Source: Armatimonadota bacterium (lineage in GTDB: Bacteria > Armatimonadota > JAAZEB01). Taken from it: 32,651 nucleotides of DNA. The position numbers and the translations under genes are program-made. The notes under the pieces are model-generated. The model was not told the DNA's origin. It made no database searches and saw nothing but the letters and a program-made list of their open reading frames with translations. Location of the stretch: contig JAAZEB010000196.1 of assembly GCA_012512505.1 (NCBI GenBank), positions 1 through 32,651 on the forward strand. Direction: 5' to 3'. Below are positions 29,858 to 31,680 of the stretch, piece after piece (positions within the stretch are counted from its first letter, which is position 1; the number at the start of each line of letters is the position of its first letter).

Positions 29858-30188
29858 GGGCCGGCAGCGGGCCGCCGCGCCAACCGCTGTAGCCGGAACG
29901 GATTCCCGATTCCGGAACCGTGACGCCAGAATCTGCGGATTCGACGCGTTGACAAGCGGCATCTCGTGTGCTATACTTCGCAATACCTGTGGCAGTCGCG
30001 GCATCGGTGCCGAGGCGCCCCAGAGCGCTGAAGCAAGACGGCGCGGCAGCCGAAGAACTCCGACAACCGGGTCGCGAGCCGGGCAGGAAGCCGGATGTGG
30101 CTTCGGAGGGCGGGGCGCTTCCCCCGGTGGGCGGACAGCGGTTGGCTACCGGCAGACACCGGTAGAACGGCTATAGGAGGGACTGAGC
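29858..30188 (+). promoter_or_regulatory. rhaA-infC intergenic region: weak terminator, promoter and structured leader
   Basis: This 331-nt gap holds no gene. After rhaA a 6-bp stem (ccggaa 29893-29898 with ttccgg 29910-29915) may be a weak terminator. The infC promoter follows (29949-29977). From a predicted start near 29985 the leader runs about 200 nt and is GC-rich with several stems: gaagcc/ggcttc (30087-30092 with 30099-30104) and ctaccgg/ccggtag (30146-30152 with 30159-30165, 6-nt loop). The latter ends 9 nt before the Shine-Dalgarno AGGAGG (30175-30180). Such a leader could regulate infC; no named RNA family was recognised. Confidence 0.6.
29949..29977 (+). promoter_or_regulatory. Near-consensus sigma-70-type promoter of the infC operon
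   Basis: TTGACA (29949-29954), 17-nt spacer, TATACT (29972-29977). This is the strongest promoter seen on the plus strand in the window and drives infC-rpmI-rplT. The predicted transcription start is near 29985, leaving a leader of about 200 nt. Confidence 0.85.
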
Positions 30189-30728
30189 ATAGACAGAGAC
30201 AGAGACAGAGGCAGAGGCAGAGACAGAGAACTGAGGGTCAACCACCGCATTCGCGCGCGTGAGGTGCGCCTCATTGATGATGAGGGAGAGCAGAGGGGTG
30301 TGGTCACCCTGCGCCAGGCGCTCGATCTCGCGCACGAAAAGGGGCTAGACCTGATTGAGGTGGCGCCGCACGCCGTGCCCCCCGTCTGCAAGATCATGGA
30401 CTATGGCAAGTTCAAGTACGAGCAGAGCAAGCGGGAGGGCGAGGCGCGGAAGAAGGCTCGGGCCTCGGAGCTAAAGACCGTGCGCCTGGAGCCGCAGATC
30501 GGCGAACACGACCTGCAGTTCAAGCTCCGGAGCGTTCACAAGTTCCTGCAAGAAGGGGACAAAGTGAAGATTTCGGTAATGTTCCGGGGTCGGTCAATCA
30601 CCCATCCGGAGTTCGGGAAGCGCCTGCTGGAGCAGGTGGTAGAGCGCTCGAGCGAACTGGCCAATGTGGAGCGGCCGCCTGCGTTTGAAGGCCGGATGAT
30701 GACGATGATCCTCAGTCCTAAATCGTAG
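30189..30728 (+). CDS. infC: Translation initiation factor IF-3, apparent AUA start
   Basis: 179 residues from the proposed start. IF-3 binds the 30S subunit, checks the start codon and prevents subunit joining. The family blocks are RVNHRIRAREVRLIDDEG, GLDLIEVAPHAVPPVCKIMDYGKFKYEQ, KARASELKTVRLEPQIGEHD and VKISVMFRGR. The conserved VNHRIRAREV lies upstream of the first GTG (30264), and no ATG, GTG or TTG precedes it in frame. ATA at 30189 sits 8 nt after a perfect AGGAGG (30175-30180) and is taken as the start; CTG at 30183 is too close to that site and CTG at 30231 has none. Non-canonical infC starts (AUU in E. coli) are known to allow autoregulation. Codons 2-13 come from a six-unit hexanucleotide repeat giving Asp/Gly-Arg pairs, all Arg as AGA. 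Confidence 0.92.
   Translation: MDRDRDRGRGRDRELRVNHRIRAREVRLIDDEGEQRGVVTLRQALDLAHEKGLDLIEVAPHAVPPVCKIMDYGKFKYEQSKREGEARKKARASELKTVRLEPQIGEHDLQFKLRSVHKFLQEGDKVKISVMFRGRSITHPEFGKRLLEQVVERSSELANVERPPAFEGRMMTMILSPKS
30192..30227 (+). repeat. Hexanucleotide tandem repeat at the infC 5' end
   Basis: Six units of gacaga (units 4 and 5 are ggcaga) in frame, encoding Asp-Arg three times, Gly-Arg twice and Asp-Arg once. Gain or loss of a unit by slippage would keep the infC frame. The purine-rich tract is also likely unstructured, which may help ribosome entry at the non-canonical start. Confidence 0.85.
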
Positions 30729-31062
30729 CCGTTCCGGGTGCGTTCGTTCGTCGTGACCTGACTGGCCGTGGGCACCGCGGTCAAGGTGACGGGCCGGCGC
30801 AGGGGTGCGCCGGTGTGTGCGAGCGGACGGGCCGTATGGGGTGATGGGCATTCCGCCGTGGCGGCGACAGCGGACGCGGGCAGTGAGCCGTCGGGGGTTC
30901 GCGCGTCCGCTGCCGCGCGGCGGTTGGCCGTAAAGAGAGCAGCCGGGTTCCCAAACCGGAGCCCGGCTGGTGTTTGACCGCAAGGGCTGTTCCGTGGGCG
31001 GGCCCGGTGTTGCCGGCGGCCGGTCAACGGGACAGCCTGTCTTTTGCGAAAGGGGGGCATCA
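30729..31062 (+). promoter_or_regulatory. infC-rpmI gap with a hairpin leader
   Basis: 334 nt with no convincing gene; these genes are usually much closer. A stem of agccggg (30941-30947) with cccggct (30962-30968) encloses a 14-nt loop, preceded by taaagagagc and followed by tggtgttt. It may act as an attenuator or as part of a ribosomal-protein-binding leader for rpmI-rplT. An open frame at 30768-30977 has no ribosome site and an Ala/Arg/Gly composition, so I do not count it as a gene. Confidence 0.45.
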
Positions 31063-31260
31063 ATGCCCAAGTTGAAGACCCGCAAAGGCATCGCCAAGCG
31101 GTTCCGGGTGACCGGATCGGGCAAGATCATGCGCCGGCGGGCGTTCAAGGGCCACCTGATGCTCGGCAAGTCGCCGAGCCAGAAGCGGCGCTTGAGCAGC
31201 CCGGCGGAGGTCACCGGCGGGTATGCCGCCGAGGTCCGGCGCAACCTGCCGTATGCCTGA
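31063..31260 (+). CDS. rpmI: 50S ribosomal protein L35
   Basis: 65 residues, family length. [25 protein letters not shown], then [20 protein letters not shown] match L35 throughout, a small basic protein of the large subunit. AGGGGGG lies about 6 nt before the ATG. It is in the conserved order infC-rpmI-rplT, 48 nt before rplT and clearly co-transcribed with it. Confidence 0.97.
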
Positions 31261-31308: not shown

Positions 31309-31680
31309 ATGGCACGAGTTAAACGCGGGATGATGACCCGCAAGCGCCACAATGAGGTCCTGAAGCTGGCCAAGGGCTACCGTGGCGCCAAGCACCGCTT
31401 GTTCCGCCAGGCGCATGAGTCGGTGATGCACGCGGGCCAGTACGCTTACCGCGATCGCCGGCAGCGGAAGCGCGACTTCCGCCGGCTGTGGATTACCCGC
31501 ATCAGCGCGGCGTGCAAGCTAAACGGCCTGCCTTATAACCGCTTCATTGAGGGCCTCACCAAGGCCGGAGTGGCGATCGACCGCAAGATCTTGGCCGACC
31601 TGGCCGTCAATGACGCGGCCGCCTTTGCCGAGATCGTCGGCGTGGCCCGCCAGCACACGACGGCCCCCGCCGCTGCCTGA
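31309..31680 (+). CDS. rplT: 50S ribosomal protein L20
   Basis: 123 residues, family length. [71 protein letters not shown] are diagnostic of L20, which binds 23S rRNA early in assembly and in several bacteria represses its own operon by binding the mRNA. The C-terminal tail is Ala/Thr-rich. GGGAGAG lies about 6 nt before the ATG. It is the last gene of the infC operon and is followed by a perfect 13-bp hairpin. Confidence 0.98.

Follow-up and report, generated by a model that had tools for sequence, protein, structure and literature searches.

The AUA start codon of a bacterial infC gene is well supported and ordinary for infC

Introduction

At which codon does translation of infC, the gene for translation initiation factor IF-3 (IF3), begin when none of the standard start codons precedes its conserved domain, and does the hexamer repeat at the beginning of the gene take part in its control? 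An initial annotation of the window (by which we mean the whole stretch of DNA analyzed here, 32,651 nucleotides) had proposed an AUA start that is likely autoregulated by IF3, had described AUA as a rare version of such a start, and had read the codon, the slippery repeat behind it, and the rare codons within that repeat as one combined control point for initiation and early elongation. We compared the locus with its relatives and examined each of these proposals.

Results

The window derives from a 5.66-Mb draft genome in 396 contigs, the only one of its species in the collection, and the best named match among those listed was an Armatimonadetes MAG (L031) at 61% identity. Two genomes of the same family, L002 of G001 and L003 of G002, encode IF3 proteins with 86% and 78% identity and are referred to below as the sister genera; the phylum of the comparison genomes is probably Armatimonadota. 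The features of the locus are collected in Table 1. Because its matches to IF3_N and IF3_C span nearly the whole Pfam profiles, infC encodes a full-length IF3. The spacer between infC and rpmI (30729–31062) is 334 nt long here as opposed to 105–113 nt in the sister genera, and immediately 5' of rpmI lies a candidate stem, CTGTTCC...GGGACAG, a comparable element with changed bases being found in L002 and L003. The stem could be an L20-type leader; the spacer element had no Rfam match.

Table 1. Features at and around infC in the window.
Feature	Position	Strand	Basis or context
rhaA	28586–29857		next before infC in the window
Sigma-70-type infC promoter, TTGACA-N17-TATACT	29949–29977	+	sequence; sequence and spacing shared with both sister genera
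infC leader, ~205 nt	29984–30188	+	putative transcription start
Shine-Dalgarno sequence, AGGAGG	30175–30180	+	sequence; GGAGGGACTGRGCAT conserved in family
infC, translation initiation factor IF-3, 179 aa	30189–30728	+	full-length Pfam IF3_N and IF3_C
ATA start codon of infC	30189–30191	+	sequence; AUC in same position in both sister genera
Six hexamers GRC AGA, (Asp/Gly-Arg)x6	30192–30227	+	TRF; two units in sister genera
rpmI	31063–31260		after infC
rplT	31309–31680		after rpmI
Phage-integrase-type (XerC/D-like) recombinase			3' of rplT, last gene of window

Starts further upstream are ruled out by an in-frame TAG at 30174–30176, and between this stop and the IF3 domain there is no ATG, GTG, or TTG in frame, so that ATA is the sole well-placed start. 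The proposed route into the conserved N-terminus was therefore borne out, as was the Shine-Dalgarno (SD) sequence assigned to it, from which ATA is separated by 8 nt (30181–30188). Only two other start-like codons, CTG 30183 and CTG 30231, lie between the stop and the domain, the former 2 nt from the SD and the latter with a weak SD match; GTG 30264 falls within the Pfam match to IF3_N, whose first residue is number 17 when translation is counted from ATA. The gene thus has the makeup of the class with AUU, AUC, or AUA behind an SD and without a usable AUG, GUG, or UUG, and its relatives are arranged alike. We infer that initiation takes place at AUA 30189 in the cell.

Both sister genera conserve the arrangement SD-GACTGRGC-AUC-GACAGAGACAGA. 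They keep GGAGGGACTGRGCAT, followed by AUC (ATA here) and then by GACAGAGACAGA, after which G001 continues directly with GAA CTA CGG and the domain, and G002 with GAC CAT GGT CTG CGC. Across the sister genera, 24 columns around the start site are nearly invariant, and the leader has diverged. As to whether the start and the repeat are conserved, the alignment of 5' ends gave a divided answer: the SD-spaced AUH position is kept, the ATA itself is not, being AUC in both sister genera, and the number of units varies, with two in each of them as against six here. The parsimonious reading of these sequences is an ancestor that probably had AUC and two hexamers, this lineage having changed to AUA and gained four further in-frame units.

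The promoter is conserved in both sister genera, where the leader is only ~100 nt long as compared with ~205 nt here. The extra ~105 nt (within 29984–30174) have no copy elsewhere in the genome, and the idea that the leader is a dispersed repeat was rejected because no repeat copies were found there. Folding of the leader was not above the level of shuffled sequences (z −1.0), and we therefore claim no leader structure. Rfam searches gave zero matches at the gathering threshold over the window and no meaningful match around infC at a relaxed threshold.

For the wider comparison, each infC 5' end was represented by whichever start-like codon in frame had the best SD at a distance of 5–11 nt. 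Among 157 usable genomes (L199, L200, and L240 were left out, as were L204 and L234, in which infC is cut short by a contig end), the best SD-spaced start was AUA in 74, AUC in 62, AUU in 13, ACG in 3, GTG in 2, CTG in 2, and TTG in 1. Relatives with an ATG or GTG start, sought as evidence against an AUA start, thus amounted to the two GTG genomes and none with AUG. Among the five GTG, CTG, or TTG calls, L132 and L229 also have an AUC with a usably spaced SD, and in L274 an ATA stands right before the CTG. Out-of-frame controls shifted by one or two bases left 98 and 74 of the 157 genomes, respectively, without a call and produced no comparable skew. Because nearly every relative has an AUH codon, of the kind that IF3 discriminates against, at this SD-spaced position, the comparison strongly supports the AUA start and, with it, likely autoregulation by IF3. 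AUA is not a rare version, being the commonest class in the phylum sample and also known experimentally in Staphylococcus aureus (PMC13009471). In other bacteria, the 80 infC genes sampled as best matches, an uneven set with many Rhodobacteraceae, had AUA in 45, AUU in 16, and AUC in 15. We conclude that the AUA start is well supported yet ordinary for infC. In the Rhodobacteraceae genes (L043–L081), the AUA start is conserved and is followed by GCC/GGA CGC AGA CCN CAY AAY GCN.

A separate observation concerns ACG: in three genomes, which belong to two families, no other start-like codon of infC is well placed. The ACG-start loci are L112 and L176 (G037), L175 (G061), and L021 (G054), with the SD at 7–8 nt, and in L112 and L175 the frame is free of ATN, GTG, and TTG up to the IF3 domain. 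Two species belonging to one genus (G037, G061) have conserved the codon in the context GAG-TGA-AC(C/T)CG(A/C)-ACG-GAC-AG(A/G)-GAT-AGG. Judged by these sequences, infC apparently starts at ACG in two families, which we offer as a lead only; such starts, if confirmed, would carry IF3 feedback beyond AUH codons.

The six hexamers follow ATA directly, as had been described (TRF score 64, 6.5 copies), in the order GAC AGA three times, GGC AGA twice, and GAC AGA once. No other such tract occurs in the 5.66-Mb genome (at most 2 mismatches per three units); of 291 genomes from the phylum, only 3 have a run of at least four GRCAGA units, and the six-unit tract at infC is the only one of its kind among them. 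Other genomes of the phylum have Arg-rich IF3 tails of their own with varied lengths, which suggests, at the level of sequence, that the N-terminal tail tolerates change. Phase-variable repeats shift the frame or alter promoter spacing, and the tract does neither: its 6-nt unit is two codons inside the coding frame, gain or loss of units keeps that frame, and an on/off switch was accordingly rejected.

On a viral contig (L282, 4920–4958), a stretch of 39 nt encoding ARDRDRDRGRGRDRE in an unrelated protein matches the infC tract exactly, down to the succession of GAC and GGC units. The DNA around this match shares nothing with the window, six-unit GRCAGA arrays occur in at least 120 viral stretches, and the unit order of the infC tract was seen in 2 of 81 loci examined, the L282 contig being one. 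Transfer between the virus and infC was therefore rejected in favor of coincidence in low-complexity coding sequence, such arrays being common in the collection.

The rarity of AGA held up in a codon table of 23 ORFs chosen from the window, in which AGA accounts for 5 of 8,915 codons (0.56 per 1000) and ATA for 7; infC has six AGA within its first 13 codons. A tRNA-Arg(UCU) gene is present, one having been found among the best 30 tRNA loci scanned. Across the phylum, with kinship ignored, AGA makes up 65 of 340 Arg codons (19%) in infC codons 2–13 compared with 29 of 686 (4%) in the core. When the six AGA were replaced by synonymous codons at the usage of the window in 300 versions, the predicted folding of the start region averaged −32.2 kcal/mol with 48% unpaired, as compared to −13.3 kcal/mol with 71% unpaired for the native sequence, and none of the 300 versions was as open as the native one. 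In reporter libraries, the benefit of rare early codons has been attributed to low structure and not to codon rarity, and AGA is listed among the codons that are helpful when placed early (PMC9844084). The predicted folding favors accessibility over programmed stalling as the role of the early AGA codons, and the infC case agrees with a role of rare early codons in accessibility.

Discussion

It is very probable that infC of the window is an ordinary IF3-autoregulated gene whose A-rich start is accessible and whose microsatellite has expanded almost neutrally. IF3 would reject the AUA start of its own gene and thereby limit its own synthesis, a feedback that is likely here by analogy with known infC genes, and the strong SD, the fixed spacing, and the unstructured A-rich stretch after the start may keep the poor codon usable and basal synthesis adequate. 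The AGA codons would be there for accessibility and as a legacy of a conserved Met-Asp-Arg-Asp-Arg beginning, which in-frame slippage may have expanded from two hexamers to six; we infer both the direction and the neutrality of this expansion. The added units would lengthen an Asp/Gly-Arg tail, probably flexible, ahead of the IF3 N-domain, and their effect is probably small. A lineage-specific function of the six-unit tract, unique at infC in the phylum, is possible.

Were AUA and the run of AGA codons instead to stall early ribosomes, IF3 output would depend on charged tRNA-Arg(UCU). The scarcity of AGA in the window genes against its density at the start of infC, along with the one tRNA-Arg(UCU) among the best 30 loci scanned, would suit such a mechanism, but we consider it unlikely since the sister genera have just two AGA there, the early enrichment of AGA is phylum-wide and fits accessibility, and reporter libraries count AGA among the codons that help at early positions (PMC9844084). 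The combined control point is thus unsupported: its unit is frame-neutral and present only twice in the sister genera, the tRNA is present, and accessibility explains the AGA codons better. It is quite unlikely that the GACAGA tract, varying slowly in length, sets the level of IF3 synthesis by way of either start-site accessibility or early elongation, so that the lineage would tune start-codon stringency through in-frame slippage.

The fragmentation of the assembly into 396 contigs and the single genome for the species could be taken to mean that the tract is an artefact, its repeat collapsed or over-extended, and that the base at 30191 is wrong. However, two sister genomes, assembled independently, have the identical SD and first two hexamers, the units differ in their bases (GAC/GGC) in a tract of just 36 nt, and AUA is frequent among relatives, making this explanation very unlikely. 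An internal start at CTG 30231 or GTG 30264, which would leave the ATA-hexamer stretch untranslated, is most improbable. GTG 30264 is the choice of a standard ORF caller, but it would cut the conserved IF3_N residues VNHRIRARE, the SD before ATA is better than at either internal codon, and relatives conserve both the place of the AUH codon and the frame in which the tail is read. That the ORF caller drops 25 codons bears on gene calling. AUA emerges here as a normal infC start in a little-studied phylum.

The closest parallels are the infC genes of L002 and L003, which share with this one the promoter, the SD, the spacer GACTGRGC, and an Asp-Arg-Asp-Arg beginning with AGA codons; the differences lie in their AUC start, two hexamers, and shorter leader. 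In Escherichia coli and Streptomyces, infC starts at AUU and AUC, respectively, with IF3 feedback (PMC5472188 and papers it cites). These genes resemble the present one in having a start codon that IF3 discriminates against, giving negative feedback, but they differ in its third base, and the feedback shown in E. coli would operate here by analogy (PMC5472188). An AUA behind a strong SD at the IF3 gene is found in S. aureus, where the start was mapped by ribosome profiling (Ribo-Ret) and its authors proposed feedback (PMC13009471); here, by comparison, the start is read from the sequence and is followed by a hexamer repeat of a kind not reported in the accessible portion of that account.
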